This document shows positions 2,898 to 64,000 of a stretch of 64,000 bases of DNA, piece after piece. The DNA lies in contig JANXMQ010000069.1 of the NCBI GenBank assembly GCA_025354565.1, forward strand, positions 21,259 through 85,258. The letters run 5' to 3'. Positions within the stretch are counted from its first letter, which is position 1, and the number at the start of each line of letters is the position of its first letter. The notes below the pieces were generated by a model. The model saw only the letters and a list, made by a program, of their open reading frames with translations. It searched no databases and was not told where the DNA came from. Origin of the DNA: Akkermansiaceae bacterium (GTDB taxonomy: Bacteria; Verrucomicrobiota; Verrucomicrobiia; Verrucomicrobiales; Akkermansiaceae). The translations under genes were made by a program, and so were the position numbers.

Positions 2898-3743
2898 ATG
2901 CGTTTCGTCCTTTCCACATCAGCATTTTGGCTAGTTGGTATCATCTCCACCTTCGCGGGGGAAGAGGCTGCACATGAGGGGCTGCCGCTCCACGCAGAGC
3001 GGATTTTTGACAATCTACCGATCACCAATTCGATGGTGATGTCGTGGGTTGCGGCGCTGCTCGTGATTTTGTTTGCCAAGGTAGCCACGCGTCAAATGGC
3101 GGTGATTCCAAGCGGCATTCAAAATTTCGCCGAATGGCTGGTGGAAAGCCTTTATAACTTCCTTGAAGGGATTTTAGGCGCCCATCTTGTCAAACGCACG
3201 TTCTGGTTTTTCGGCGGGGTCTTCATCATGATCCTGTGTTCCAACTGGATCGGACTCTTCCCTGGAGTCGGAACGATCAAATGGGGCGACGCGCCGATTT
3301 TGCGCGGTGGCAATGCCGACCTCAATATGACCCTCGCGCTGGCTTTGGTCGCCACGGTGCTCTGGTTTTACTGGGCAATCACTGAAAACGGGGTGATGGG
3401 TTTCTTGAAACACATTTTCGCGCCGAAAGGGGAGTTCAATGGCCCCATGAAGCTGCTCATGATCGCGATCTTCTTCATGGTGGGCATCATCGAGGTGTTC
3501 TCCATCCTGCTCCGGCCGGTCGCGCTGTCTTTCCGGCTTTTCGGCAACGTCTTTGCGGGCGAGAACATGCTAGACATCATGATGAAGTTGGTAAATCCGA
3601 AGATCGCCTTCTTGCCAGCCCTACCTTTCTACTTTTTGGAGCTTCTCGTCGGGCTTATCCAAGCCTTGGTTTTCATGCTCCTGACTGCAGTCTTTCTCCA
3701 ACTGATCTGCGATCACGGCGACGACCACGAAGAAGCCCATTGA
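2898..3743 (+). CDS. atpB: F0F1 ATP synthase subunit a
   Basis: 'LLRPVALSFRLFGNVFAGENMLDIMM...LPFYFLELLVGLIQALVFMLLTAVFL'; first gene of the atp operon. Confidence 0.95.
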   Translation: MRFVLSTSAFWLVGIISTFAGEEAAHEGLPLHAERIFDNLPITNSMVMSWVAALLVILFAKVATRQMAVIPSGIQNFAEWLVESLYNFLEGILGAHLVKRTFWFFGGVFIMILCSNWIGLFPGVGTIKWGDAPILRGGNADLNMTLALALVATVLWFYWAITENGVMGFLKHIFAPKGEFNGPMKLLMIAIFFMVGIIEVFSILLRPVALSFRLFGNVFAGENMLDIMMKLVNPKIAFLPALPFYFLELLVGLIQALVFMLLTAVFLQLICDHGDDHEEAH

Positions 3744-3818
3744 AATTTCCCGCCCTGACCATGAAATCCTCGTGGGGAGCGGAAAAACCAACACTGTAAA
3801 ACAACAACCATCAAATTC

Positions 3819-4046
3819 ATGACAACCCTCATCGACCTCACCCCTTATCTCAGCGAACTAACCGGCAATCCAACAGCCGGAATCGCCGCCCTCGGTGCCG
3901 GCATCGGCATCGGCCTCATCGGCGGCAAAGCTGCTGAAGCCACCGGCCGCAACCCCGGCGCATCCGGAGCCATCCTCACGATCTCGATCATTCTTGCAGC
4001 GCTCGTCGAAGGTGCCTTCTTCGTCGCCGCTCTTGTCAAAGGTTAA
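3819..4046 (+). CDS. atpE: F0F1 ATP synthase subunit c
   Basis: 75 aa two-helix proteolipid with GIGIGLIGGKAAEATGRNPGA loop and essential Glu in ALVEGAFF. Confidence 0.95.
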   Translation: MTTLIDLTPYLSELTGNPTAGIAALGAGIGIGLIGGKAAEATGRNPGASGAILTISIILAALVEGAFFVAALVKG

Positions 4047-4052
4047 TCACCC

Positions 4053-4087
4053 GATACCGGCGGGTCTAACACCCGCCGGTATCTTTT
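4053..4087 (+). promoter_or_regulatory. intercistronic stem-loop between atpE and atpF
   Basis: Perfect 13-bp stem GATACCGGCGGGT-ctaac-ACCCGCCGGTATC followed by TTTT. Confidence 0.85.
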
Positions 4088-4123
4088 CGCCTTCACTTTT
4101 CGTTCATTTTAAACCACAGCGCC

Positions 4124-4672
4124 ATGCTCGATTTCATCAATGTTCTTGCGGTTGCAGATTCCGGCAATCCTATCAAAGCTATCGTCAGGACGTTTGACGT
4201 TGATGGGTCATTGCTATTCGCGCAGATCCTGAATGTTTGCGTGGTCCTGTTCGTACTCAATAAATTCGCATTCGGGCCGATTCTAAAAATGCTCGAAGAG
4301 CGCCGCGCCCGCATCATCGCCGGTGAAGATAAGATCAAGCTTATCGAGCGCCAGCTCGCCGACTCGGTGGAAACCACCGCCGCCGCTATTTCCAAGGCCA
4401 ATGACGAAGCCGTCCGCATGGTGACCGAGGCGAAACAAGGAGCCGCCACTTTCACCGAGCAAAAGGCTCAGGAAGCGATTTCAAGCGCCCAACAAATCCT
4501 CGCCAAGGCGGAAGCCGCCGCCAAGGCAGACCGCGAGCGTCTCACCGCCGAGTTGAAGCGTGAATTCGGCCGCCTCGTGGTGGCGACGACCTCCCAAGTC
4601 ACCGGCAAACTCCTCACGGCGGACGACCAGAAGCGCATCAATGAAGACGCCCTGGCCAAGGTCGAAGGCTAA
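4124..4672 (+). CDS. atpF: F0F1 ATP synthase subunit b
   Basis: N-terminal TM, 'FGPILKMLEERRARIIAGEDKI' and long helix. Confidence 0.9.
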   Translation: MLDFINVLAVADSGNPIKAIVRTFDVDGSLLFAQILNVCVVLFVLNKFAFGPILKMLEERRARIIAGEDKIKLIERQLADSVETTAAAISKANDEAVRMVTEAKQGAATFTEQKAQEAISSAQQILAKAEAAAKADRERLTAELKREFGRLVVATTSQVTGKLLTADDQKRINEDALAKVEG

Positions 4673-4698
4673 TCGCCCGTTTCCCATTTTTCCGCGCC

Positions 4699-5091
4699 AT
4701 GAAAATTTCAAAAACCGCCGCCGCCGCCGCTCGCCGCTTGTTCGGGCTTTGCCAGACGGGCGACCGGTTCGACGCCGCGAAAATGCAGACCGTGATCGCT
4801 CGCTTGATCGAAGCCCAGCCGCGGGATTACAAGGCCATTCTCGCCGCCCTCCAACGCCTGACCCGTCTCGAACTCGCCCGCCGCAAGGTGACCGTAGAGA
4901 GCGCCGTGGAAATGGACGCTGCCACCCGCCAGCGCGTGATCGCCGGCCTCGCCACTCAATACGGCCCGGACCTCGCGATCCAATATCAAGTCACTCCCGC
5001 CCTCCTCGGCGGCCTCCGCATCCGCGTGGGCGATGATGTTTTCGACGGCTCCGTCCAGAACCGCCTCGATCGCCTTGCCAACCTTTTCTAA
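4699..5091 (+). CDS. atpH: F0F1 ATP synthase subunit delta (short, 130 aa)
   Basis: C-terminal '[29 protein letters not shown]' matches the OSCP/delta C-terminus; operon position. Confidence 0.9.
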
Positions 5092-5140
5092 CTTCTTTTT
5101 TGCTGAAACACCGAACCCCGATCCCCAGCCAATTTTTCTT

Positions 5141-6682
5141 ATGAGCAGCATCCTTCAGGAACTCGAACAACAGATCGCCGGCATCACGACCTCCGTCGAA
5201 AAAACCAATGTCGGCACCGTCCGCCAAGTCGGTGACGGCGTGGCTAAAGTGGAAGGCCTTTCCGACGTCATGCTCAATGAGATGATCGAATTCGGTGGCG
5301 GTGTCACCGGCATGGCCCTCAACCTTGAGGAAAGCGAAGTCGGCGTCGTGCTTCTCGGCAACTACGCTGCCGTGACCGAAGGCGCGGAATGCCGCACCAC
5401 GGGCAAATTGCTCTCCGTACCGGTCGGCGAGGCCGTGCTTGGCCGCGTGGTCAATGCCCTCGGCGCCCCCATCGACGGCAAGGGCGATATCGCCGCCGCC
5501 GCGAACTATCCGATGGAAAAAATCGCGCCAGGCATCATCAAGCGCAAATCCGTTTCCGTCCCCGTCCAGACCGGTATCATGTCGATCGACGCGATGATCC
5601 CCGTTGGCCGTGGCCAGCGCGAGCTCATCATCGGCGACCGCGCCACCGGCAAGACCACCATCGCGGTGGACACCATCATTTCCCAAGCCCTCCAGAACAA
5701 GGCGGCGGAAAATGGCAAGCTCCAGAACCACAAGCCGCTCTATTGTATCTACGTCGCCATCGGCCAGAAGCTCTCTAACGTCGCCCGGATTCAGAAAATC
5801 CTCGAAGACGCCGGTGCCATGGAATACACCACCATCGTTTCCGCCTCCGCTTCGGACGCCGCCGCCATGCAGTATCTCGCGCCGTATGCCGGTTGCGCAA
5901 TCGCCGAGTATTTCATGGATCAAGGCAAGGATTGCTTGATTGTTTTCGACGACCTTTCCAAGCACGCAGTTGCCTATCGTCAGGTGTCGCTGATTCTCCG
6001 CCGCCCATCCGGCCGGGAAGCTTATCCGGGCGACGTGTTCTACCTCCACAGCCGCTTGCTCGAACGTTCCGCCCGCCTTTCCGAAGCTGCGGGTGGTGGT
6101 TCGCTCACCGCGCTGCCGATCATCGAGACGCAGGCTGGCGACGTTTCCGCCTACATCCCGACCAACGTGATTTCCATCACCGACGGTCAGATCTATCTGG
6201 AAACCGACCTTTTCTATCAGGGTATCCGCCCCGCGATTTCGGTGGGTCTCTCGGTGTCCCGCGTGGGTTCCGCTTGCCAAACCAAGACGATCAAGTCCGT
6301 CGCCGGCACGACCAAGCTGGACCTCGCGCAGTATCGCGAGCTTCAGGCCTTCGCCCAGTTCGGTTCCGACCTCGACGCCTCCACCAAGAAGAAACTCGAC
6401 CGCGGTGCCCGCATCGTCGAACTCTTCAAGCAGAACCAATACAGCCCGCTCGCCATGGAGATGGAGTCGGTCTATCTCTTCGCCATGCAGAACGGTTACT
6501 TCGATGACGTCGCGGTGCCGGATGTTAAACGCTTCCAAGCCGCGCTCGGTGAATTCTTCAACACCCGCAAGGGCGAACTGCTCGACAAGATCCGCAACGA
6601 AAAGCCGGACCTCAAGAAGGACAAGGAAATGGTCGAAGCCGTCAAACAAGGCGTCGAGGATTTCAAAAAGTCCTGGAAATAA
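5141..6682 (+). CDS. atpA: F0F1 ATP synthase subunit alpha
   Basis: [14 protein letters not shown]...; Walker A GDRATGKT, '[42 protein letters not shown]'. Confidence 0.98.
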
Positions 6683-6727
6683 CCCTCTTCCTTGATTCTG
6701 GACTCTTGATTCTAACTATTTCCTAAC

Positions 6728-7573
6728 ATGGCCAACCTCCGCGACATCCGCCGACGCATCAAGTCGGTTAAAAACACCGCGCAGATCACTCGCGCGATGC
6801 AGCTTGTCGCCGCCGCCAAGATGAAGAAGGCGCAGGATCAGGCGCTGGCCGGTCGTGAGTATTCAAAGCAGCTCAACGGCGTCCTTCAGGACATCAGCGA
6901 GAGTTTCAGTGATGCCACCCACGCGTTGTTAGAAAAGCGCAGCGGCAACCGCGAATTGGTGCTCATCATTTCCACCGACAAGGGCCTTTGCGGTGCCATC
7001 AATACCAACCTCGCCAAAGTCGTTCGCAAGCAAACTTCGGCGGACGCGGACTACGTGACCGTCGGTCGCAAACTGCGCGTCATGATGGAAAAACTCGGAC
7101 GCACGGTGGTTGCGGATTTCACGGTGAAAGACCCGGTGCCGTTCTCGGATGCGCGCGCCATCTCGGCCTTGATTTCCAAACATTTCATCGCTGGAAAATA
7201 CGACAAGGTCACTGTGGCCTACACCCGCTTCGTCAACACCATGACCCAGGTGCCGGAAGTCGTCCAACTGCTGCCGGTCGAGACGCCTACCGACCACGCT
7301 GAAGTCACCGCCACCAACGATTTTCTCTTCGAGCCTTCTCCTGCCGATGTTTTGAGCGCGATTCTCCCGCTTTACATCAACTTCCGTGTCTTCCAAGCCC
7401 TCGTCGAAGCCCGCGCCTCCGAGCACTCCGCCCGCATGGTCGCCATGAAGGCCGCCACCGACAACGCGAAGAAATTCATCAAGGAACTCACCCTCGAATA
7501 CAACAAACTCCGCCAAGGCGCGATCACCGCCGAGCTGCTCGAAATCACCACCGCCATGAAGGCGATGGAGTGA
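6728..7573 (+). CDS. atpG: F0F1 ATP synthase subunit gamma
   Basis: MANLRDIRRRIKSVKNTAQITRAMQLVAAAKMKKAQ... Confidence 0.97.
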   Translation: MANLRDIRRRIKSVKNTAQITRAMQLVAAAKMKKAQDQALAGREYSKQLNGVLQDISESFSDATHALLEKRSGNRELVLIISTDKGLCGAINTNLAKVVRKQTSADADYVTVGRKLRVMMEKLGRTVVADFTVKDPVPFSDARAISALISKHFIAGKYDKVTVAYTRFVNTMTQVPEVVQLLPVETPTDHAEVTATNDFLFEPSPADVLSAILPLYINFRVFQALVEARASEHSARMVAMKAATDNAKKFIKELTLEYNKLRQGAITAELLEITTAMKAME

Positions 7574-7594
7574 CCTCTAACTTTTAACATCTAA

Positions 7595-9082
<1,488 letters not shown>

Positions 9083-9117
9083 ATCTCAAATTTGAAATTT
9101 TAAATCTCAAATCCAAG

Positions 9118-9531
9118 ATGCCCCTCGAACTCCATATCGTCACCCCCGAGAAGAGAATTTTCTCGGACCTCGTGGACAATGTCTATCTGCCCGGCGCGGA
9201 TGGCGAATTGGGCGTGCTGCCGATGCACACGGGGCTGGTGACTGCGCTGAAGCCGGGCGAACTCCGCTACGCCTATCACGGCACGGTCCAGACCCTCGCG
9301 ATCGGCTCCGGTTTCGCCGAAATCACCCAGACCAAGGTCGTCGTCCTCACCGACAGCGCCCTCGGTGAGGCGGACATCGACGAAGCTCACGTTGAGGAGG
9401 CAATCAAACGCGCTCAGGAAAAACTCGCCACCGTCGATCACAACCTCGACGCGGAGGAAGTCGCCTACCTCCAAGGCGTCATTTCCAGATCCACCGCCGC
9501 CCTTCATTTCAAGCGGAAATACCGGCCATAA
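9118..9531 (+). CDS. atpC: F0F1 ATP synthase subunit epsilon
   Basis: MPLELHIVTPEKRIFSDLVDNVYLPGADGELGVLPMHTGLVTALKPGEL. Confidence 0.95.
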   Translation: MPLELHIVTPEKRIFSDLVDNVYLPGADGELGVLPMHTGLVTALKPGELRYAYHGTVQTLAIGSGFAEITQTKVVVLTDSALGEADIDEAHVEEAIKRAQEKLATVDHNLDAEEVAYLQGVISRSTAALHFKRKYRP

Positions 9532-9555
9532 GTAGTACGGCACGTCTGATTTTCC

Positions 9556-9589
9556 AAACCCACCCCGGTCCGTCCGCGGTGGGTTTTTT
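9556..9589 (+). terminator. rho-independent terminator after atpC
   Basis: AAACCCACC ... GGTGGGTTTTTT hairpin with T-run. Confidence 0.85.
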
Positions 9590-9645
9590 CGTTAGCGTCA
9601 CCCTTGTCCCCGCTGCGATTTCGGGCTAGCTTCCGCCCCCGCGCA

Positions 9646-11514
9646 ATGAACACAAACATCCAGATTTTTTCCCCGGAACGCATCGCCCGACTTGCGGATA
9701 CCATGTCGATCGCGGCGGATGAGCTTGCGGCGATCATCAGGCAGGGTTTCTCGCAAATCTATCCGACTGGAGCCTGGCTCTTCCACGAATCCGCGCCCCG
9801 GCTGTGGATGGGCATCGTCGAGGAAGGGGAAATTGAAATCGTGCGCGGCAACCACGGCAGCAGCACTCGCCTCGCCACGCTCACCCGGGGCAGTGCCTTC
9901 AGTGAGGGGGTGATGTTGGATGATCTGCCGCACTCGGCCTCTGCCATCGCGCTGACCGAGGTGCGGGTTTGGCTGGTTCCTCGCGTGGTGTTTGAACAGC
10001 TTCGCGCTGAGAAACCGGAGGTCTTCTATCGGATGGTCGGCCACATCGCCCGCCGTTTAAGTGCGCGACTGTTAGCTTCTAACGAGCACCTCGTTTCCGG
10101 CCGCTCGCCGGTCATCGCCACCTGGCGCAAGGAGCACGATTCGCTCGGCGAGCGCGAGCTGCCGGACACCGCTTACTACGGCGTGCAAACTTTGCGGGGG
10201 ATGGAAAATTTCCCCATCTCCGGCATCCCGCTCCACCATTTCAGCCACTTCGTTCGTAGCCTCGCCTATGTGAAGAAAGCCGCTGCCCGCGCGAACCAGG
10301 AACTCGGCGTCGTGCTGCCGGACCGCGCCGCTGCAATCATCGCCGCTTGCGACGAGATCATCGCCGGGAAGTGGCACCAGCATTTCACCATCGACATGAT
10401 CCAAGGCGGTGCCGGCACCTCGACAAACATGAACGCCAACGAGGTCATCGCCAACCGCGCCCTCGAAATCCTCGGCCACCGCAAGGGCCAATACGAATTC
10501 CTCCACCCGAATGACGACGTCAACCGCTCGCAATCGACCAACGACGCCTACCCAACCGCCATCAAGCTCGGCGTCATACTAACCATGCGCGACGCCACCT
10601 CCGCTCTGCGCGAGTTGCAAGCCTCGCTCATCGCTAAAGCGGGCGAATTTGCCGACGTTTTGAAAATGGGCCGCACCGAGAACCAGGACGCTGTGCCGAT
10701 GACCCTTGGTCAGGAATTCAGCGCGTATGCCTCGATGATCGGCGACGGCATCCGCTACATCGAGCGCGCTGCCGGGGAATTTCTCGACGTCAACATGGGA
10801 GCCACCGCCGTCGGCACCGGCATCAACAGCCCGCCCGGCTATGCGGAGCTCTGCACTCGGCATTTGGCCCAAGTCAGCGGCCTGCCTGTGCGCCTCGCGG
10901 AGAATCTCGTACAGTCCACCCAAGACAGCGGCTCGTTCGCGTTGATGAGCGGTTCGATGAAAACCGCGGCCGTCCAACTTTCAAAAATCTGCAACGACCT
11001 CCGCTGGCTCTCGTCCGGCCCGCGCTGTGGACTTTATGAAATCCGCCTGCCCGCCATGCAACCCGGCTCTTCAATCATGCCCGGCAAGGTGAACCCCGTC
11101 ATCCCGGAAATGGTTAGCCAAGTTTGCTATCAGATCATCGGCGCGGACGTGACAATCTCCATGGCTTGCGAGGCTAGTGAACTGGAACTCAACATGGCCG
11201 AACCGATCATCGCCTTCAACTTGTTCTTCGGCCTCACCCTGCTGCGCAACGCCGCCATCGCTCTGCACACCCGCTGCATCTCCGGCATCGAGGCGAACCG
11301 CGAGCGCTGCCTGGCATATGTGCAAAACTCCATCGGCCTCGTCACCGCGCTCAACCCAGTGCTCGGGTATGAAAAAAGTGCGGCCATCGCTAAGGAAGCC
11401 CTTGCCACCGGGTCCAGCGTTTACAGCCTCGTGCTGGAAAAAGGCTGGCTCAGTAAGGAGCAGTTAGACGATCTCCTCACGCCGGAAAAAATGACCCGTC
11501 CGCGGCCATCCTGA
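9646..11514 (+). CDS. cyclic-nucleotide-binding (CRP-like) domain fused to aspartate ammonia-lyase
   Basis: N-terminal ~140 aa cNMP-binding-like fold (IVEEGEIEIVRG...LTRGSAFSEGVMLDD), then aspartase/fumarase core with GSSIMPGKVNPVIPEMV signature. Confidence 0.9.
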   Translation: MNTNIQIFSPERIARLADTMSIAADELAAIIRQGFSQIYPTGAWLFHESAPRLWMGIVEEGEIEIVRGNHGSSTRLATLTRGSAFSEGVMLDDLPHSASAIALTEVRVWLVPRVVFEQLRAEKPEVFYRMVGHIARRLSARLLASNEHLVSGRSPVIATWRKEHDSLGERELPDTAYYGVQTLRGMENFPISGIPLHHFSHFVRSLAYVKKAAARANQELGVVLPDRAAAIIAACDEIIAGKWHQHFTIDMIQGGAGTSTNMNANEVIANRALEILGHRKGQYEFLHPNDDVNRSQSTNDAYPTAIKLGVILTMRDATSALRELQASLIAKAGEFADVLKMGRTENQDAVPMTLGQEFSAYASMIGDGIRYIERAAGEFLDVNMGATAVGTGINSPPGYAELCTRHLAQVSGLPVRLAENLVQSTQDSGSFALMSGSMKTAAVQLSKICNDLRWLSSGPRCGLYEIRLPAMQPGSSIMPGKVNPVIPEMVSQVCYQIIGADVTISMACEASELELNMAEPIIAFNLFFGLTLLRNAAIALHTRCISGIEANRERCLAYVQNSIGLVTALNPVLGYEKSAAIAKEALATGSSVYSLVLEKGWLSKEQLDDLLTPEKMTRPRPS

Positions 11515-12058
11515 CTTCTAGCAGGTTGAAAGTCTCGTCATCAATCACCGTTCTAGCAGAGTCCATCCAGTCCATCGGCGGCGGCGGGAGATTCACCCAA
11601 CTACGACAGCCGCCGTAATTCGCTTCATAGGGAAATTCCCAAGGCGTGGCGAGTTCCCGGACCCGGATCAGCGCGAGATGGATGCTGCCCGCCGCCATGC
11701 CCTTGCCCTCCCAGTTGAAACGCTCACTAACTGTTTTCTCGGCGTAGATGTGGTATGGGACCAGCGCGGCGACCTGGCCCAAAACAGTTAGAGTGACCGC
11801 CCAGATGGCTTCCGCATGGTGGGTGATGCGGATGAGGTCGCCCGGTTGCCATTCGGGCAGGAGGCTCACCTCGCCTTCCCGGATCTGATCTGCAAGCGCG
11901 TGGAAACGGGTGGGAAACAGAAAAAACGACTCGTGAGCGAAGGAAAATCCCTGACGTCCTTCATGGATCCCGCCTTTGCGCAGGAGGATCGCCTGCCGCC
12001 CGGATGCCAGGGCGTCGCAAACCACCTGCCATTCTTTGAAGCCGATGGAAGCACTCAT
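11477..12058 (-). CDS. DUF1802 family protein
   Basis: MSASIGFKEWQVVCDALASGRQAILLRKGGIHEGRQGFSFAHESFFLFPT. Confidence 0.7.
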   Translation of the reverse strand: MSASIGFKEWQVVCDALASGRQAILLRKGGIHEGRQGFSFAHESFFLFPTRFHALADQIREGEVSLLPEWQPGDLIRITHHAEAIWAVTLTVLGQVAALVPYHIYAEKTVSERFNWEGKGMAAGSIHLALIRVRELATPWEFPYEANYGGCRSWVNLPPPPMDWMDSARTVIDDETFNLLEVRMAADGSFFPA

Positions 12059-12064
12059 GAAATC

Positions 12065-12295
12065 TCAGCCGAGGTCATCGGCGGTGACCGACGTTTGCTC
12101 TCGCGAGCCAAGAATCCGCGCTTGGAGCACCACACGATCCGGCGCGGCGTCGAAGCGATAGCTGTGGCAGTTCGGGCAGAGCGCGGCAGCACTGCCAACG
12201 ATCGAGTCGCAGCCCTCGCAGACTTTGTAGCCTGTGGGGTTAGCGGCGATCTTTGCAGCAGCGGCGGCGCGATTCGGTGGCGGGGATTCGGGCAT
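12065..12295 (-). CDS. small zinc-ribbon protein
   Basis: CxxC pairs 'VCEGCDSIVGSAAALCPNCHSYRF'. Confidence 0.65.
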   Translation of the reverse strand: MPESPPPNRAAAAAKIAANPTGYKVCEGCDSIVGSAAALCPNCHSYRFDAAPDRVVLQARILGSREQTSVTADDLG

Positions 12296-12373
12296 GGTGG
12301 AGATGAAAAAAGCGGCACCGGAGAACCGGTCCGCTTGTTTCGTTGGATTGCATGAAACCGGCTGACTGGCCAA

Positions 12374-12637
12374 TCAGGCGATGGCGGCAATTGCCCTCGC
12401 GGTTTTGCTCTTCATGTTAGCAGCTTTATTCGGATGAATCAAGTTGCGCTTTGCAGCCTTGTCCGCGACGGAGGAAAATACCGAGCTGGCAGCCGAGGCG
12501 GCGGCTTTGTCACCGGCGGCGATCGCCGTAAGAACCTTCTTGCGAAGCGTCTTCATACGGCTTTTTTCAGCGCGATTGCGTTCGGTCCGGACGACGGTTT
12601 GACGTGCGCGTTTGATTGAAGATTTGTGATTGGCCAT
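12374..12637 (-). CDS. rpsT: 30S ribosomal protein S20
   Basis: [35 protein letters not shown]. Confidence 0.97.
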
Positions 12638-12728
12638 GGTCTTATTGTAAAATAAATCAGTCGCCGGGTGGCGGGCGGGGGAAAATAGGAATTTCAGCGC
12701 AGGTGTCAAGCGCCTGTTTCAAAAGATC

Positions 12729-13367
12729 TCAGCCGCGTGAGTGAAAACCGCCATTTCCATTGGATGCGGTGTCCTCATTCGCCTTGCTGCTCTGGATCGA
12801 ACCGCGGATCACGAAGACATCGGCTCCGGTGCCGATGCGGTTGTAAAGGTCCGCCACGTCGCGGCTGCCCATGCGAATGCAGCCGAAGGAGGCAGGTGCA
12901 CCCAAGTAGCGCTCTTCCGGGGTGCCATGAATGTAAATGGTACGGCGGAAGGCGTTCTGGTTGCGGGACTCGGTGCCGGTCAGCCAGAGGATCCGCGTGA
13001 CCACGGGATCGCGGCCGGGTGCGTTCGGCTTGAGAACCTCACCGGTGGGCCGGCGGCATTTGAAAACACTGCCTACCGGGGCATTGTCGCCGATTTTTTT
13101 CGCAACCTGAAGCCGTCCGAGCGGGGTGCAGTTACTGTTAGGACGATCCCCGACGCCGAATTTGGAGGTGGAAATCTTGTAAGCCTTGACCGGAGTGCCA
13201 TCGTGAACGAGCAGCATTTTCTGATCACGCACGCTTACGATCATTTTATTGTGGGTATCCCCGCCATTGAAAGCGAACGAGTCCGAGCCGCAACTGGAGA
13301 ACCCGAGTGCTGCCAAGAGGCTGAGCGAGGCGAGAAAAAGCACGCGCGGCAGTGGAATTCCGTTCAT
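12729..13367 (-). CDS. L,D-transpeptidase (YkuD) lipoprotein
   Basis: Lipobox-like 'LAALGFSSC'; 'IYIHGTPEERYLGAPASFGCIRMGSRDVADLY' catalytic motif. Confidence 0.9.
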   Translation of the reverse strand: MNGIPLPRVLFLASLSLLAALGFSSCGSDSFAFNGGDTHNKMIVSVRDQKMLLVHDGTPVKAYKISTSKFGVGDRPNSNCTPLGRLQVAKKIGDNAPVGSVFKCRRPTGEVLKPNAPGRDPVVTRILWLTGTESRNQNAFRRTIYIHGTPEERYLGAPASFGCIRMGSRDVADLYNRIGTGADVFVIRGSIQSSKANEDTASNGNGGFHSRG

Positions 13368-14872
13368 GGTGTTTTGCGATTCACGATCTTCGCGACCGCT
13401 GCCTCCGGGGCGGATGGCAGAAGACGGACCAAAGAAGATAAGGATGTATAAAAGAATCCGACGGGGAATGGAAGCAAAAGAATCGCGGAAGGCCAATTTG
13501 CGCTCATCGCGGCATCAACAACGACGAAGAGGAAGAAAAACCCGAATAGCAGCTCGACGAAGGGCGTGAGCGTTTTCATGGCCTTATAGCTGCTTTTTTT
13601 CCAATCGCTGCGGCGGTTCTGGCCGATGCCGTATTTCGGGGTGCGGACGAAGGCGCTCTGATGATTGAAGATCGCTTCGAGCACTGCCTTGGTATTGCTG
13701 ATGGACATGCCGATGCCGAGGGCGAGCAGCAGCGGGAGGTAGGGGATTTCTTTCCACCATGAGCCGGGTCGCAGCGCCTTTTGGGCAACCATGTAGAACA
13801 CGATCACGGAGACCGACGAGAAGAAGAATATCGGGACGTTGACGATGTAATAGGTGAGTTTTCCAAAATCCGGCTGCCACTGCTGGTTCGGATAGATCAG
13901 GAAGCACAGGCAGATGAGGAGTAGGTAGGCGAAATTCGAGGTGAGATGGGCGGTGGCCTCCATCTTGATGAAGAGCGGCACGTCGCTTTTCCAAATGGCC
14001 GGGAGGACTTTTTTGCAAACTTGGATCGAACCCTTGGTCCAGCGGTGTTGTTGGCTTTTGAAGCCGTCCATATCGACCGGCAGCTCGGCGGGCGTTTCCA
14101 CATCGTTGAGGAAAATGAAGCGCCAACCCTTGAGCTGGGCGCGGTAGCTGAGGTCCATGTCCTCGGTGAGCGTGTCGTGTTCCCAGCCTCCGGCGTCGGC
14201 GATACAGGATTTCCGCCAGATACCGCCGGTGCCATTGAAGGTGAAAAACCGGCCGGAACGATTGCGGGCGGTCTGCTCCAGCTCCAAATGGCCGTCGAGA
14301 AACATCGCCTGGATGCGGGTGAGCACGTTGTAGGTCCGATTCAGGTGGCCCCAACGCGTCTGGATCATGCCGATTTTATCATCGGAGAAATAGTGGATCG
14401 TTTTTTGCAGCAGGTCTGGATTCGGGACAAAGTCGGCATCGAGGATGAGTAGAAATTCGCCTTTTGCGAAGCGGATGCCGTTCTCTAGCGCGCCCGCCTT
14501 GTAGCCGGTGCGGTCGGTCCGGTGGATGTGCTCGGCATCGAAACCACGGGCCTTCAAGCCCTCGATCCCAGCCCGGCAAATTTCCACCGTCTGATCCGTC
14601 GAGTCATCCAAAAGCTGGATCTGGATCTTGTCCTGCGGGTAATCCAGCGCGGAAACCGAGGCTAGGAGGCGGTCCACGACGTGCATCTCGTTGAAAACCG
14701 GAAGCTGGATGGTCACCAAGGGCAGTTCCGCGAACAATTCCTTGGGATGCGGATGCTTGCGCGAGTGTTTCAGGTAGAGAAAAACGATCGTCAGACGATG
14801 CGAGCCATAGCCAGCCAAGCCGATGAGGACGACAATATACGAAGCATACCAAAGTGGTGAGGACCAGTCCAT
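13364..14872 (-). CDS. family 2 glycosyltransferase (cellulose synthase-like)
   Basis: 'VTIQLPVFNEMHVVDRLLASVSALDYP', 'ILDADFVPNPD', 'TLTEDMDLSYRAQLKGWR', 'QQHRWTKGSIQ'; multiple TMs. Confidence 0.92.
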   Translation of the reverse strand: MDWSSPLWYASYIVVLIGLAGYGSHRLTIVFLYLKHSRKHPHPKELFAELPLVTIQLPVFNEMHVVDRLLASVSALDYPQDKIQIQLLDDSTDQTVEICRAGIEGLKARGFDAEHIHRTDRTGYKAGALENGIRFAKGEFLLILDADFVPNPDLLQKTIHYFSDDKIGMIQTRWGHLNRTYNVLTRIQAMFLDGHLELEQTARNRSGRFFTFNGTGGIWRKSCIADAGGWEHDTLTEDMDLSYRAQLKGWRFIFLNDVETPAELPVDMDGFKSQQHRWTKGSIQVCKKVLPAIWKSDVPLFIKMEATAHLTSNFAYLLLICLCFLIYPNQQWQPDFGKLTYYIVNVPIFFFSSVSVIVFYMVAQKALRPGSWWKEIPYLPLLLALGIGMSISNTKAVLEAIFNHQSAFVRTPKYGIGQNRRSDWKKSSYKAMKTLTPFVELLFGFFFLFVVVDAAMSANWPSAILLLPFPVGFFYTSLSSLVRLLPSAPEAAVAKIVNRKTP

Positions 14873-56824: not shown

Positions 56825-56914
56825 GGGCAGGTGTCAGAGTGGTCGAATGAGCACGCTTGGAAAGCGTGTGTAGCAGCAATGTTACCGAGGGTTCGAATCC
56901 CTCCCTGTCCGCCA
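56825..56914 (+). tRNA. tRNA-Ser (anticodon GGA), CCA encoded
   Basis: Acceptor GGGCAGG/CCTGTCC + G + CCA; anticodon arm ACGCTTGGAAAGCGT; long variable arm; T-loop GGTTCGAATCC. Confidence 0.97.
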
Positions 56915-57078: not shown

Positions 57079-58749
57079 ATGCAATTGCCTCATTCCCTTG
57101 AATCCCCTCCGGAAACCCACCAATCCACTCGATGGGATCGCTGGATGCGGCCATTGTATTGGCTAGCCGGAGCCCGCTGGGAAACCCTGCGCCACTGTCC
57201 GCCCTCGGAACGGGAACGGATCGCCGTCCTCGGCAGCACCGTGCTGATTCCGACGACAATGTCGTTTCTTGGAATGATCTTCTATTCAAAAAGCCGTTTC
57301 GCCGATCCACCTTGGCTTTCGGTGTTCGCAATCTCACTGGCGTGGTCCTTTGTGATCATGAATACCGACCGAATCCTGCTCGCGACTTATCGCCCATTTC
57401 AACCGTGGTGGCGCCGCATGATGCAGGTGATTTTCCGCTTTGCCCTCGCTGCGGTGGTCAGTGTTGCAATCGGTTTCCCATTTTGCCTCGATCAATACCG
57501 ACCTGCAATCAAGTACCGGATGCAGACCGAACTCCAAGGTAAGCTCAACATCCTGCGTGGCGACGAGGCCGCGAAACGAGATGTCCTTTCCGCGAATCTC
57601 CTGAAAATGCGCGACGATGAAACCCTTGCACGCAAGGAGATCGTGGAAACCCACACCACACAGCGCGAAGAACTCACGGCCCGCCTACCCAAGTTACAGA
57701 TGGCGGTCGTGAATCCGGAGGATGAGGCCGACAAGCGGATCGAGGACGAGCGGAAGAGGGCGGGCGAGTCGGATTTCGTCGCTCCAGCCGGGGCAGAAAC
57801 CCGCACGGTACTCGCTGCCATCGAGGCCCAGAAAGAGACTCTGACGAAGACAAAAGCCAACATCGAGGAAAAACAGGATCTTCACCGGAGACTTGTCGAG
57901 GCAGTTGCCCGTGAGAGCGCCGGCTTGCCGAATGAATTCTATCCTGAGCCCAAGAAGGCAGGCTCCGGGCCCCGGACCAAGGACATGCAGCTTCGCGACA
58001 AAGCGACTGTCGTCGAGTTGACGCGTCTATCGGGCCAACTCACGGCACAGGAAGAGGCTCTTGTGGCAAGCGATAAAAAACTCTCGGCTGCGCGGCTCGT
58101 GGACCGCAACGCTTATCTCGACAGTCTGGCAGACAAGCGCGACTCCTATGTTCAGGAGGCGAAGGAGAAGGAGCGGGTCCGGAAGGAACAACTTGCCAAG
58201 TTGAACTCCGACATTGCGGCGCGGGATGAAGATTACAAGCAGCGGCTCGCGCGGCTCGCGGAGCAGACCGCGACTGCCGAGAGCGCTCACAAGAACAATG
58301 TCAAACGCCACGATGAAACCTACCTTCCCCCCATCCTGCGCATCGAGGGGAAGATCAACGGCATTCTCGATCCCATGGAGGAAACCATGGGTCTTTACCG
58401 GGTAATTTTCGTGCCCTCGCCCGATGCCGATAAAACCGAGCAGGAAGAACAGGGCAAGAAATGGATCGCTGGCCTGTTCCAGTTCCTTGTGATCTTCGGC
58501 ACGCTCTTCGTCTTGGACATGGTGCCGATCATGACCAAAATCTTCAGCCGCGCCGGACCCTACGACGTGCTGGTTGAACACCCGGAATTCATCGCCAATG
58601 CCAATCTTCGCGTATTCCACACGGAATATGGAAAACGCTCCGAAGACTGGGGTATCACCGGAATGGCAGACCAACCCAGCGGCCCGGATTTAGTGAAAGG
58701 CAACCCGCGCAATGTGCCGCAGCCGCCAAAACCTGATGCGGGAAATTGA
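57079..58749 (+). CDS. DUF4407 membrane/coiled-coil protein
   Basis: 'RPLYWLAGARWETLRHCPPSERERIAVLGSTVLIPTTMSFLGMIFYSKSRF...FVIMNTDRILLATYR' followed by long coiled coil and a C-terminal TM. Confidence 0.8.
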   Translation: MQLPHSLESPPETHQSTRWDRWMRPLYWLAGARWETLRHCPPSERERIAVLGSTVLIPTTMSFLGMIFYSKSRFADPPWLSVFAISLAWSFVIMNTDRILLATYRPFQPWWRRMMQVIFRFALAAVVSVAIGFPFCLDQYRPAIKYRMQTELQGKLNILRGDEAAKRDVLSANLLKMRDDETLARKEIVETHTTQREELTARLPKLQMAVVNPEDEADKRIEDERKRAGESDFVAPAGAETRTVLAAIEAQKETLTKTKANIEEKQDLHRRLVEAVARESAGLPNEFYPEPKKAGSGPRTKDMQLRDKATVVELTRLSGQLTAQEEALVASDKKLSAARLVDRNAYLDSLADKRDSYVQEAKEKERVRKEQLAKLNSDIAARDEDYKQRLARLAEQTATAESAHKNNVKRHDETYLPPILRIEGKINGILDPMEETMGLYRVIFVPSPDADKTEQEEQGKKWIAGLFQFLVIFGTLFVLDMVPIMTKIFSRAGPYDVLVEHPEFIANANLRVFHTEYGKRSEDWGITGMADQPSGPDLVKGNPRNVPQPPKPDAGN

Positions 58750-58851
58750 ACACTGCTTATTAATTCGGTTCTAGACGCAAAAAGCAAATTCGTCGTTACC
58801 CACAACACCAATGACTTCCGCCGAATCGAAGGTTTAAACCCTGACGACTGA
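58750..58851 (+). pseudogene. remnant of a PIN-domain (VapC-like) toxin C-terminus
   Basis: In-frame with, and directly after, the DUF4407 stop: ...VLDAKSKFVVTHNTNDFRRIEGLNPDD*, matching the typical VapC C-terminal 'VTRNxxDFxxIxGL' segment. Confidence 0.65.
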
Positions 58852-59225
58852 CGCTGAAAACACCGAACATCTTGTTAGTTGAATTATTGTCTTAATCACC
58901 CACATCCATGATTCTCCTCTCACAGACTGCCGTCATCCCGGATATTGAAGACAGCGTCTGCCCCGCTTGCCGGGCATTTGCCCCCATTCCCTGCACGCAC
59001 AGGATTACCACCCGGGATACCATACCTGATCTACGCGCCTATCGAACTGCTCGAAGAGGAAACCGTGGGCGAGGAGCTGTATATGGACTGGCGCTACCAC
59101 CTTGTCTATTACTACTGATCCTTAGATTGTTGCAGGTCTGGAAGGAGGATTTAAGTTTGCTCCGAGACCAAAAGTCTTGCCTCCCCATATATTCCTGAAA
59201 ACGCACTCCTAATGAAGCACCCAAT

Positions 59226-61250
59226 ATGGCATTACCTAACAACAACACGCTGTCTCAAAAGTATCACGCAGAAATGCTTCGATTCGATCAGTTGCTCGAA
59301 AAACTTGAAAACAGCCTTCCGCACAAAAGACCGGTGATCCGCCGAGATGACGGCCAAAATTACCAGGCAGTAGACGAGATATTCATGCGCATCAAGCGGG
59401 CTAGAGGAGAATTTGACGCGCTACTCTTCTTTGCTGTCTGTTTCGGCATGCTTAAAAGCGGGAAATCGACCCTTGTAAACCTGTTTGCAGGAAGGCCGGA
59501 GGTATCGCCCACACGTTTCGGTTTGGATACCACTCTTCGCCCATGTTTGATTCTCGCTGGCGCCGTAGATCAAATTTCAATATTTGATATCAAGGATTTC
59601 AGCAAAAGGGGCGCGGACTCCGATTTTGAGCGAAAGTGCTTCCATGCGGTGATTGATCACCTGCGGGGAATTATCAACGAGGCCAATCTGTTGGCAAAGC
59701 ATTCTGTGAGTGTCAAAAAACACAGGTTTAGCTCGGACGCTATCTTCAAAGCGCTTTGCACAAAGGAAGGATTGAACGGAGAAAACCCGCTAATCACGGT
59801 GGTTCACCTCAATGGATCCAGTGATCTATTAAAGCATGACGTCGCGATACTTGATGTTCCGGGAATAGACAGTAACCAGTCAAACATTGAAAACTATATA
59901 TCCCTACTCGACCGCTGTGATCTTCTCCTCTTTATTCAATCCACAGTTTCCGCCCTCAACCACGAGGCGACAACACTCCTGCAAGGCCTCGTCGAAAGAA
60001 GTAAAAACTCGCCAATTTGGCTGATCCAAAACCGTTTTCAGGCGCAGAGTTGGAGGAATCAGAACAAACTCGATGAGCAGGATACAAAACTTGTCGAAAT
60101 TACTAAGCGTGAGCTCGCAAGCGACCTGAGAGTTGAATCGAAGCACATCCTCGCGCACCAGGTCAATCTGGGAAAGGCATACGATGCTCGTCTCAACCGG
60201 GGCGACCTTTCCGAAGAATCGGACGCTGCAAGGCTACTAAGCGAATCCAGATTCCCAGAGGTTGAGAAAGAGTTGATAGATAGAATCACTGAAAGCCGAC
60301 TCGACATTCAGCTTTCAAACTGCCTCAATCAATTTGACAGGTCAATCAAGTCAGGCCGAGAAGACCTCAAGGAACTGGAATTATGGTTGGGAAAGCAAGT
60401 TGTAGCTCTATTTGAATTTCGCAATAAATTTGACAAGCTATTTAAACAGATTGAGGGGGGGCATGGCGTATTGCCAAGCCTTCAGATCGGTGATGACTCG
60501 GTGGGACCTGCCGATTCGATTAAAAACACAATTTCTCAAAAACTCGCTTCCTGGAAAGACCATATCAACGCAACTTTAGACAGTTGGAGATCAGAAATTA
60601 CCACCGATCTTATCGCGGACGATTTTAATAAAGTTCTCAAGGAAAAATTTAACACAACGTTCGAATATGGCATGAAAAGCTCATTCAATCTAAAAGGGGA
60701 CTTTGGAATACAGCTTTCCGATCTATTCCGGAGTTGCATCGAGGGCCACCAACCATTCAAAGATTGGCTGGAATCCTGTCAAACATTTCTCCAAGACAGC
60801 AGCGGGAATCAGATGGATGCCGTCTATCCCTTGTGGGAACCAGAGCCCGAAGTTTGCTATCTTGATGTACATCCAGAGAAACCATCACAAGTGTCCGGTG
60901 GTAGGAGAGGCTGGACTTTGTACATTGCCAAACACAAGGTCAGTATCGATACGGTCAAAGAAAAAATAGACGAGGCAAAGAAGAATCTTGCCACAGCGGC
61001 CGACATTTACGCAGCAAAAATGCAGAAAGAAAAAGTCAAAGAGTTCTTCAGGCAATACAGAGATAATCAGTTGGCGATGTTCTTTAAAGAACAGCTCCGC
61101 GCCCAACGGGAATCAATGGATGAGTTTGCTCATAAGGAAAAAGCGGATCTGGAATCCTGTTCAGAATCGCTCAAATCCGTTGCCCATTGTTTGGATGAGC
61201 TTGGTAATTTTTGTGGAGAGTTCAGCGTTAAGATCGGTTCACACCATTGA
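59226..61250 (+). CDS. dynamin-like large GTPase
   Basis: G1 'GMLKSGKSTLVNLF', G2-like 'PTRFGLDTTLRPC', G3 'DVPGIDSNQSN'; long helical C-terminal region; low-GC gene. Confidence 0.8.
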   Translation: MALPNNNTLSQKYHAEMLRFDQLLEKLENSLPHKRPVIRRDDGQNYQAVDEIFMRIKRARGEFDALLFFAVCFGMLKSGKSTLVNLFAGRPEVSPTRFGLDTTLRPCLILAGAVDQISIFDIKDFSKRGADSDFERKCFHAVIDHLRGIINEANLLAKHSVSVKKHRFSSDAIFKALCTKEGLNGENPLITVVHLNGSSDLLKHDVAILDVPGIDSNQSNIENYISLLDRCDLLLFIQSTVSALNHEATTLLQGLVERSKNSPIWLIQNRFQAQSWRNQNKLDEQDTKLVEITKRELASDLRVESKHILAHQVNLGKAYDARLNRGDLSEESDAARLLSESRFPEVEKELIDRITESRLDIQLSNCLNQFDRSIKSGREDLKELELWLGKQVVALFEFRNKFDKLFKQIEGGHGVLPSLQIGDDSVGPADSIKNTISQKLASWKDHINATLDSWRSEITTDLIADDFNKVLKEKFNTTFEYGMKSSFNLKGDFGIQLSDLFRSCIEGHQPFKDWLESCQTFLQDSSGNQMDAVYPLWEPEPEVCYLDVHPEKPSQVSGGRRGWTLYIAKHKVSIDTVKEKIDEAKKNLATAADIYAAKMQKEKVKEFFRQYRDNQLAMFFKEQLRAQRESMDEFAHKEKADLESCSESLKSVAHCLDELGNFCGEFSVKIGSHH

Positions 61251-62164
61251 AATTTATAATGAAGACTCTTAAACCAATATTGTTTGCATCCGCTGCGACT
61301 TTAGTCCTGCTGCTTCCTGTGATCTGGATTGTCGCCGGCCTTGCCGCAGACCTTCACGCGTTTCATCCGTTGGCCGGATGGATGGTTTGGGTAATGACCG
61401 CCATCGCAATTGCCATACTGCTAATGCCGATAGTGAGAATGTTTCGACTGCCACGGCTACCAGATGCCCGCATTTGGGGAGAAAACAATTCCAAACTTGA
61501 GGATCGCCAATATCAGCAGATGGCCGACGTTCTGATACGAAGTGGCGAACAGGACGATACTCACCTTGCCAAGTTGAAAAGAATTCGAGATCAGAGCCCA
61601 GGCGATCTTAAGCGCCTTGTTATTGAAACAGTCGAGAGAAGGAAGACTGCCGCTGTAGAAATGAGGGGTGGGTATATCCGGCAGGCCGTATTCACTTCGA
61701 TCCTAAGTCCTCACAAGCGGCTTGATCATTTTCTTCTTCTCTGGATCAACCTGCAACAGATTTATCGATTGGCAAAACATTACGGATTCCGCCCGAGTCC
61801 TCGAGGATTGTATAACTTGTATCTCAAAGTGTTTGGAGCTGCTCTAGTTATTGATGCAGTCGAAGAAATTACAGCGCAGGGAATGGCTGAACTTGCTCAC
61901 CGTATCGCCGGAGGAATTCCGTTCGTACGGGAAGCTGCAGCGGTGGCATTCGACGGAGTAAAGGCGGGTGTCTACACAGGCTACGTGGGTCTGCTTACTG
62001 AATATCTCATGAGACATGAGTTTTCTTTGCCTGAACGAGATGAGAGAATTTCTCTTCGCAAGGAAGCATTAACTACGGCGTTAGCAGTCATCAAGATGTC
62101 CAGTTCTGATAAAAAAAATGACGAACTAGTTTCACACGAAGAACTCCAACCGCAAAAATCGTAA
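61247..62164 (+). CDS. two-TM membrane protein, YcjF/DUF697-like
   Basis: Two N-terminal TMs then a helical/Gly-rich domain 'FGAALVIDAVEEITAQGMAELAHRIAGGIPFVREAAAVAFDGVKAGVYTGYVG'; TTG start overlaps GTPase stop by 4 nt (or ATG at 61259). Confidence 0.7.
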   Translation: MKFIMKTLKPILFASAATLVLLLPVIWIVAGLAADLHAFHPLAGWMVWVMTAIAIAILLMPIVRMFRLPRLPDARIWGENNSKLEDRQYQQMADVLIRSGEQDDTHLAKLKRIRDQSPGDLKRLVIETVERRKTAAVEMRGGYIRQAVFTSILSPHKRLDHFLLLWINLQQIYRLAKHYGFRPSPRGLYNLYLKVFGAALVIDAVEEITAQGMAELAHRIAGGIPFVREAAAVAFDGVKAGVYTGYVGLLTEYLMRHEFSLPERDERISLRKEALTTALAVIKMSSSDKKNDELVSHEELQPQKS

Positions 62165-62205
62165 CTCTAGGATTTCAATCTTTTCCTTTGCTACCGATGA
62201 CAATA

Positions 62206-63339
62206 TCAAGTCAAACGCGATTTAAGTTGGTTTTTGTTAAAAGTGCAGGTTAGAGTCCTGACAGCTGGAAATATTGTGACAATGAAAATAGTAACCGATA
62301 TTGTGAATGAGGCGAGTCCGAGCCAAAACAAAATTTTGCGAATACCTGGATGATTCAATAACCAGTCAATCAGCCCATTTCTTAGGTCCTGCATTCGGCC
62401 TTTATATAAAAATTTTGTACCCCGCAGATAAGGTCGGGCATTGGCAATCCCCTTCGCGCCTTTACGGAGAGCTGTTCCAAGTGCGGTTTTGTTGCTGGCT
62501 AGATTTGCTTTCAGCCACTCGCCTCCTCCGGCGTCGAGGAGAACAATCGTTTCATTTGGAGCCTGTTTTGACCATTTGGCAACTGCCTTTAAATCATCCA
62601 ATGATTCGACCTCCTTCATCGCAGTTCCAAGAGTTCCTGCAGGTGCATGTTTAGCAAGTTCAGTCAAGTTTTCGACAAGATCTCCAAATCTACCAAGCTT
62701 GCGTGCTTTCACTGCTGCTTTAGCCAAATCAAACGACTCGCCTGCGAAACGATTGGTGAGCGCATTAACCTTTCGAAGTGCTTTCAAAAGCGATATTCCT
62801 ACATCCGCACTCGCAACTGCTGGTTCGCCAGGTTCTGGAACAGCGGCGGCCACAGACGTCGCAACTCCGAGTGCTGAAAGAGCTGTAACTATCTTGTCAA
62901 CCTCTTGACCCGTCGCCGCATTGTAGCCTTGATTGCCCAGATCGCGGATGTCTCCGATAACCAAGAAGTCAGAGATGATAGTTCCGGCCATTCCCTCCGA
63001 AGACGCAGTATTTCCTTTGATGAATCCACCTGTAAATCGTTTGGCTTTCCCGAACCAACTGGCCTGTTCCTCTTCCATTACGGCCTTGATTTTCAGAATT
63101 TCGTCACGATTTGGCATTCCTAGTTGGCTTTCAACATAACGGCAGATAGCAATTGCTTCCCCGACTTTTCCGTGATCCCGCCGATCAATGACTTCTTTTG
63201 TGTAATCATGATCTGGCACAAGGCTCAGTTCGCTTCCTTTCCATAGATCGAGCGCGAAGATTCCAATGGCTGCGAACACTGCGATGAAAAGTACTGAATA
63301 AAACCATCTAGGAATTTTGCTGATGATGTAGAATAGCAT
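62206..63339 (-). CDS. hypothetical membrane protein with N- and C-terminal TMs, convergent to the GTPase pair
   Basis: 377 aa; TM at residues ~13-30 and near C-terminus 'ILFWLGLASFTISVTIFIVTIFPAV'; Ala/Gly-rich central helices. Confidence 0.65.
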   Translation of the reverse strand: MLFYIISKIPRWFYSVLFIAVFAAIGIFALDLWKGSELSLVPDHDYTKEVIDRRDHGKVGEAIAICRYVESQLGMPNRDEILKIKAVMEEEQASWFGKAKRFTGGFIKGNTASSEGMAGTIISDFLVIGDIRDLGNQGYNAATGQEVDKIVTALSALGVATSVAAAVPEPGEPAVASADVGISLLKALRKVNALTNRFAGESFDLAKAAVKARKLGRFGDLVENLTELAKHAPAGTLGTAMKEVESLDDLKAVAKWSKQAPNETIVLLDAGGGEWLKANLASNKTALGTALRKGAKGIANARPYLRGTKFLYKGRMQDLRNGLIDWLLNHPGIRKILFWLGLASFTISVTIFIVTIFPAVRTLTCTFNKNQLKSRLT

Positions 63340-63381: not shown

Positions 63382-63870
63382 TTATTGATAGACTCTCACC
63401 CAGTCCACAAGCATCTGCTGGGGAAATATCGTTTGATCGTTCGGGTTGCCTGGCCAGTTTCCACCGACTGCGATGTTCAGAAGGATGTGGAATCGTTCAT
63501 TGAAAGGGGCTGGGGAGCTGGCAGATTTGGAAAACCATCGAGAGGCGGGGGTTTCTCTAAAAAGCTGGTCGTCGCAGAACCACTTCATTCCTGTCTCATC
63601 CCAGTCTATGCGAAACACATGAAAGCCATCGGAAAAGTCACCTGTTTCCAGGCGGAAGTTCTCGCTGCCGTCTGAAGTATTTTGCGGCCAAGCTGCGCCG
63701 TAGTGGATAGTTCCCATGATTTGGTGCGGTTCATGACCGAGGAGTTCCATGATGTCAATTTCACCTGATGCCGCCCAAGGTCCGTATTTTTCATCTGTGG
63801 GAAGCATCCAGATCGCTGGCCAAATTCCGGGCCCCTTGGGAAGTTTTGCTCTAATTTCAAGCCTCCTCCG
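63382..63870 (-). pseudogene. 5'-truncated GH16 glycoside hydrolase
   Basis: Frame 'RRLEIRAKLPKGPGIWPAIWMLPTDEKYGPWAASGEIDIMELLGHEP...' with EIDIME catalytic motif, but an in-frame TAG (63871-63873) sits immediately upstream and the signal peptide/N-terminal strands are missing. Confidence 0.75.
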
Positions 63871-64000
63871 CTAAATCCGTGGGTAAAACCGGGGGCTAAC
63901 CGCCGCGAAGCGGCGTGAGCCTCTTGAAAGTTGTCCACGACAGACCGCTTCGAGAATGGGTCTGTAACTCGTCGGAGAAGTGGACTGTTGTGGGCAACTT
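63871..64000 (+). other. highly structured non-coding element at right edge (candidate mobile-element RNA end)
   Basis: Nested hairpins: CGCCGC-gaa-GCGGCG inside GGGGGCT/AGCCTCT; GTCCAC/GTGGAC enclosing CAGACC/GGTCTG; AAGTTGTCCAC (63928) / GTGGGCAACTT (63990). Confidence 0.55.

Follow-up and report, generated by a model that had tools for sequence, protein, structure and literature searches.

To our knowledge, the known bacterial dynamins either carry a membrane tip of their own or have a second dynamin as partner, and the function of the DUF697 domain is not known. Pairs of bacterial dynamin-like proteins (DLPs) tether membranes (PMC6104087), and lysis by phage is delayed by the clusters that DynA builds at the membrane (PMC8844932). 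A known pair of a GTPase with a DUF697 protein is YcjX/YcjF, which goes up with the Psp genes during phiX174 infection (PMC8125068). The DO-GTPase/GAP1 conflict systems likewise combine a GTPase with a partner and variable neighbours (Hsp70, kinase, TM proteins), and the text describing them does not mention dynamins or YcjX (PMC7159879). Among open-licence papers almost no literature on DUF697 was found, none joins 'DUF697' with 'dynamin', and nothing was found on the gene pair analysed here.

The window is a stretch of 64,000 nucleotides from an Akkermansiaceae bacterium (contig JANXMQ010000069.1). Its end holds a block of three genes for a dynamin-like GTPase (G), a DUF697 protein with two transmembrane (TM) segments (P) and a further membrane protein (T), which are summarized with the surrounding features in Table 1. 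With moderate confidence, G and P are read as a two-part, membrane-hooked bacterial dynamin that protects the envelope, with T as an optional accessory. In the scheme that we infer, for the complex of G and P, the patching of membrane, its trigger and the role of T alike, P would hold G at the inner membrane. The GTP-driven assembly of G on the membrane marked by P would then cluster, tether or patch damaged membrane, and the envelope would be kept intact, for example in phage lysis, pore formation or envelope stress. T would be an optional membrane accessory recruited by some GTPase-DUF697 systems.

Table 1. Features of the window, positions counted from its first nucleotide
Feature	Position	Strand	Remarks
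ORF, 987 aa	38568..41531	-	without Pfam match at 1e-5
ORF, 555 aa	45758..47425	+	without Pfam match at 1e-5
tRNA-Ser (GGA)	56825..56914		about 1.9 kb upstream of the block
DUF4407 membrane protein	57079..58749		between tRNA-Ser and the block
PIN-domain (VapC-like) gene remnant, 3' end	58791..58851	+	left edge of the block; matches the tail of the complete PIN gene in locus L002
Decayed small ORF	58899..59043	+	counterpart between PIN gene and GTPase in L002; tblastx pieces, 36-64% identity
G, dynamin-like GTPase, 674 aa	59226..61250	+	Dynamin_N 5.1e-9, above curated cut-off
P, two-TM DUF697 protein, 305 aa from TTG 61247 or 301 aa from ATG 61259	61247..62164	+	PF05128 41.2 bits
T, all-helical membrane protein, 377 aa, motifs LPD-DY and GDIRDL--QG	62206..63339	-	TMs 12-30 and 336-354
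Family-16 glycoside hydrolase (GH16) gene fragment	63382..64000		cut at about 63861 by the repeat end
Multi-copy repeat end	63861..64000	.	right visible edge; ends the contig; 21 places in the genome, 98-100% identity

The GTPase and its membrane partner

The open reading frame of G and the motifs claimed for it in the earlier note, a P-loop (GMLKSGKST), a DVPG switch and an atypical G4 region (LIQNRFQ), were all recovered. Dynamin_N was matched by all 14 aligned homologues, and G has the features by which a bacterial DLP is recognized, namely a Dynamin_N domain with P-loop, switch and DxPG. The canonical G4 (T/N-K-x-D) is replaced by QN...W, and K-x-D was seen in no aligned homologue. Since N269 and W276 do not vary among the aligned sequences (14/14 and 17/17), the alignment indicates that the atypical G4 is a trait of the subfamily and not decay, and for this reason G is called 'dynamin-like'. 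The dN/dS of G against an 82%-identical relative (L002) is 0.10, and this purifying selection reveals a real and maintained gene.

The AlphaFold model of G, whose input comprised the window and genome proteins and left out the public plasmid row, has a mean pLDDT of 69.5. The confidence is good at about residues 50-410 and where the C-terminal helix ends, and it is poor at 413-577. Its best PDB matches in Foldseek were the C. jejuni DLP pair Cj-DLP1/2, the mitofusins, IniA, SynDLP and BDLP, so that the dynamin-like assignment made earlier is borne out by fold as well as by domain. The hydropathy of G outside the GTPase domain peaks at 0.54, with no hydrophobic stretch, which suggests a helical trunk without hydrophobic tip or paddle, poorly modelled at residues 413-577, in contrast to BDLP1, where a hydrophobic paddle is present (PMC4159319). 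Within that poorly modelled region the trunk may contain a cryptic amphipathic membrane tip.

P passes the Pfam gathering cut-off for DUF697 (27.7 bits) and is the only DUF697 gene product of this genome. The two TM segments claimed for it are strong (hydropathy 2.6 and 2.4) and lie near the N-terminus. As no hydrophobic stretch was seen in G outside the GTPase domain and P has two strong TM segments, membrane attachment is probably supplied by P, the membrane part of the pair. The overlap of 4 nt with G, as described earlier, holds for the TTG start; the ATG start, which gives a gap of 8 bp instead, appears more likely since the P homologues begin with MK at the matching position. The former description of P as YcjF/DUF697-like stands for its DUF697 part only, as a YcjF-type protein was rejected by the TIGR01620 model (19.8 bits, where 160 are required).

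The pair was compared with the known systems. The bacterial DLP pairs (Cj-DLP1/2, BDLP, SynDLP, IniA, DynA) have in common with G-P the Dynamin_N domain, the fold of GTPase domain and neck and the close gene pair, whereas the partner of G is a DUF697 membrane protein rather than a second dynamin, and G has a variant G4 and no apparent hydrophobic paddle. YcjX/YcjF likewise joins a GTPase to a DUF697 protein with TM segments, and T is found beside both kinds of pair; however, G is a Dynamin_N protein without any match to PF04317 (DUF463) at E up to 1, and P falls far under the YcjF cut-off. Membership in YcjX/YcjF was thus rejected on profile scores. The DO-GTPase/GAP1 systems resemble G-P in their layout and differ in domains, as none of the proteins G, P and T matched a DO-GTPase or GAP1 Pfam model with an E of 1 or less.

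Conservation of the pair across genomes

The genome searches covered 388 genomes of one phylum, and G was found in 17 of them. P lies directly behind G in the window and in G124, G233, G252, G162, G348 and G069. A tblastn search of plasmids gave one relative of G, on pTS2 of Treponema saccharophilum, with a DUF697 gene directly behind it. Over these seven phylum genomes and pTS2 the gaps between the two genes range from -40 to +11 nt at a protein identity of 19-24%. Plasmids of Ilyobacter and Peptoclostridium carry DUF697 genes too, but these were rejected as further pairs, having no dynamin alongside. A P profile seeded with the same seven genomes and Treponema was run over the phylum and class; it recovered the seven seed genomes and gave five strong new matches, which alone form the independent test. 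G lies directly upstream of P in two of these five (G683 and G549, the reading frame of G being broken in two in the latter), bringing the total to nine genomes of the phylum, and the other three strong P-like genes (G667, G109, G353) have no adjoining G. Several lineages have G but no P, most notably a clade in genus g18, which belongs to the window's own family. In the tree of G, the P-bearing members are scattered over several deep clades and five label changes are needed, indicating that the pairing is old with losses, or was regained. The G-P pair is real and is conserved as neighbours over deep divergence, which is the outcome that the earlier note had proposed to look for.

The reading of G-P as a dynamin split into two proteins draws on this position of P behind G across distant genomes and Treponema pTS2, and on the fold match of G to bacterial DLPs and mitofusins. 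It further draws on the low dN/dS together with the low-GC, sporadic block and its edge remnants, and on the precedents of DLP tethering (PMC6104087), DynA (PMC8844932) and YcjX/YcjF (PMC8125068). Against it stand the lineages with G and no P and the three genomes with a P-like gene and no G, the seeding of the P profile with seven of the nine genomes counted, the variant G4, which bears on nucleotide preference, and the poorly modelled trunk. If a DUF697 protein replaces the dynamin tip in G-P, DUF697 would gain a concrete and testable job, and the obscure phage-shock genes ycjX/ycjF would be tied to dynamin biology. A candidate envelope-protection module from Verrucomicrobiota-type bacteria and an unnamed membrane protein family, T, would also be added. 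Only tentatively, and with less confidence than the reading of the pair itself, 'split dynamins' (Dynamin_N with DUF697) are suggested to be an undescribed class. With YcjX/YcjF included, this would make a broader family of GTPase-DUF697 machines at membranes, with exchangeable accessories such as T, acting in phage or envelope conflict.

Composition and edges of the block

The last 5 kb of the window have a GC content of 47.1%, compared with 58.3% (sd 1.1, minimum 54.9) for the other 5-kb windows up to 59 kb, and the AT-rich segment pointed out earlier at 60601-60660 has 36.7% GC. The third-position GC is 0.41-0.50 in G, P and T against 0.62-0.75 in the upstream genes. None of 36 further genomes in the same genus and 22 in the order has G, which makes 58 related genomes without it. 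The block is foreign in composition, sporadic and mobile-looking, as had been proposed from its base composition. A phage or prophage origin was rejected, as no relatives were found in phages, viral contigs or PHROGs.

At the left junction the DUF4407 gene ends at 58749 and the tail of the PIN gene starts at about 58791. A locus of an Akkermansiaceae MAG (L002) carries a complete PIN gene, then the small ORF and then the GTPase that is 82% identical to G. The contig of L002 stops inside that GTPase gene, and the comparison there covers the PIN gene, the small ORF and the partial GTPase, whose GC is 0.47 against 0.57 upstream in the same locus. The right visible edge is formed by the repeat end, and the inspected copies of this 21-copy repeat lie at or close to contig ends, as a collapsed mobile element would give.

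The DUF4407 gene has orthologues of 72-75% in 11 genomes of the same genus. It was rejected as a part of the system, as its GC is near that of the host and none of G, P and T was present in the fetched flanks of its orthologues. The gene order around it is not conserved among the compared same-genus genomes; none of the tested neighbour genes of the window lies near the orthologues in those 11 genomes, which indicates that either the DUF4407 gene or its surroundings moved. The tRNA-Ser gene was considered as an integration site and rejected, the search for att repeats giving none convincing. The two long ORFs of 987 and 555 aa (Table 1) lie farther upstream.

The third gene, the neighbours and the possible role

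T had been described as a convergent protein of 377 aa with TM segments at both ends, which was reproduced with a distance to P of 41 bp in place of 42. A weaker hydrophobic stretch lies at residues 150-168, and the model is all-helical with a pLDDT of 76. No Pfam, PHROG or PDB match was found for T (best PDB E 1.2). A kinship of T with the membrane proteins that precede G in L025 and L037 was considered and dropped, as the profiles showed no similarity.

T occurs in 18 of the 388 genomes, in nine genera, and outside the window in none of the window's class. Most T genes are solo genes, and DUF697 is missing altogether from 15 of the 18 genomes with T. In the three with a DUF697 gene (PF05128), namely the window, G348 and G119, T adjoins it. 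At genome level, three genomes with both were seen where about 1.1 would be expected, which falls short of significance (p about 0.09). The adjacency in 3/3, by contrast, would have a probability around 1e-9 if gene order were random, by a rough estimate. On the counts of solo genes and of co-occurrence, and as T is convergent in the window and hence not co-transcribed with G-P, T might be a bystander, an unrelated solo gene that came to face the pair by chance. We lean against this reading in view of the adjacency, of the low GC common to T and the block, and of the arrangement elsewhere. G-P-T run on one strand in G348, with 15 bp between P and T, and in G119 the DUF697 gene and, behind it, T share a strand. 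T is best seen as an optional membrane accessory of some GTPase-DUF697 systems, its role being put forward conditionally. The earlier idea of T as a third part is therefore retained in its non-random placement beside such pairs and not as a constant component, T being usually a solo gene. The G119 locus (L071, 7607-11713) reads YcjX (DUF463, 1e-35), then DUF697, then T, and in this row T would add a so far undescribed third member to a pair of the YcjX/YcjF type.

The T gene that joins a dynamin-type pair as well as a YcjX-DUF697 pair, the shared layout of a GTPase followed by a TM DUF697 protein, and the part of YcjX/YcjF in the Psp-type envelope response (PMC8125068) would fit a role of G-P in envelope stress at large, in which the pair does a job analogous to that of YcjX/YcjF and is not tied to phage in particular. 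This appears doubtful, as G is not a DUF463 protein and P scores so low on the YcjF model, and absence from the 58 related genomes with a foreign composition is unlike a core stress gene.

A different reading takes the block as a dedicated anti-phage system, abortive or lysis-delaying, in which G-P would sense phage membrane damage and T or the neighbours would be effectors. A weak match of G to the LeoBC profile of Eleos (1e-9), seen in 10 of the 14 homologues too, and the membrane GTPase in a mobile-looking block are consistent with it. Eleos membership itself was rejected, since the block has one dynamin with no LeoA alongside, P is not a dynamin, and the LeoA profile is unspecific, with weak matches in this genome and matches in all 14 control genomes. 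The remnant of a PIN gene at the block edge, the sporadic occurrence and the DynA precedent (PMC8844932) point the same way, as do caspase, kinases, Hsp70 and Leo-like dynamins at related loci. L042 reads sigma-like, kinase, caspase, G, P, T, and L043 reads sigma-like (by position and start), kinase, small membrane ORFs, G, P. L025 has PP2C and two membrane proteins before G and P, and in L005 an HNH gene and then immunity-type genes come behind P.

Besides P, no neighbour of G is common to all related loci, so the caspase, kinase and Hsp70 context gives hints of defence rather than proof; the kinase and caspase matches are moreover generic domains. No complete known defence system stands beside the block in the window, where the sampled upstream host genes are of ordinary metabolism, and the phage and viral-contig collections yielded no G-P member. 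A dedicated anti-phage block is on balance unlikely; the envelope-protecting two-part dynamin stays preferred, with an anti-phage or stress role possible by analogy with these neighbours and with experiments on other dynamins. The largest arrangement was observed in L037 (G162, 3169-14110), where a C39-like peptidase, LeoBC-like (2e-20) and LeoA-like (4e-12) dynamins, Hsp70, two membrane proteins, G, P and a PrsW-type protease form a tight same-strand row with three dynamin-like GTPases, which looks like a larger composite system.
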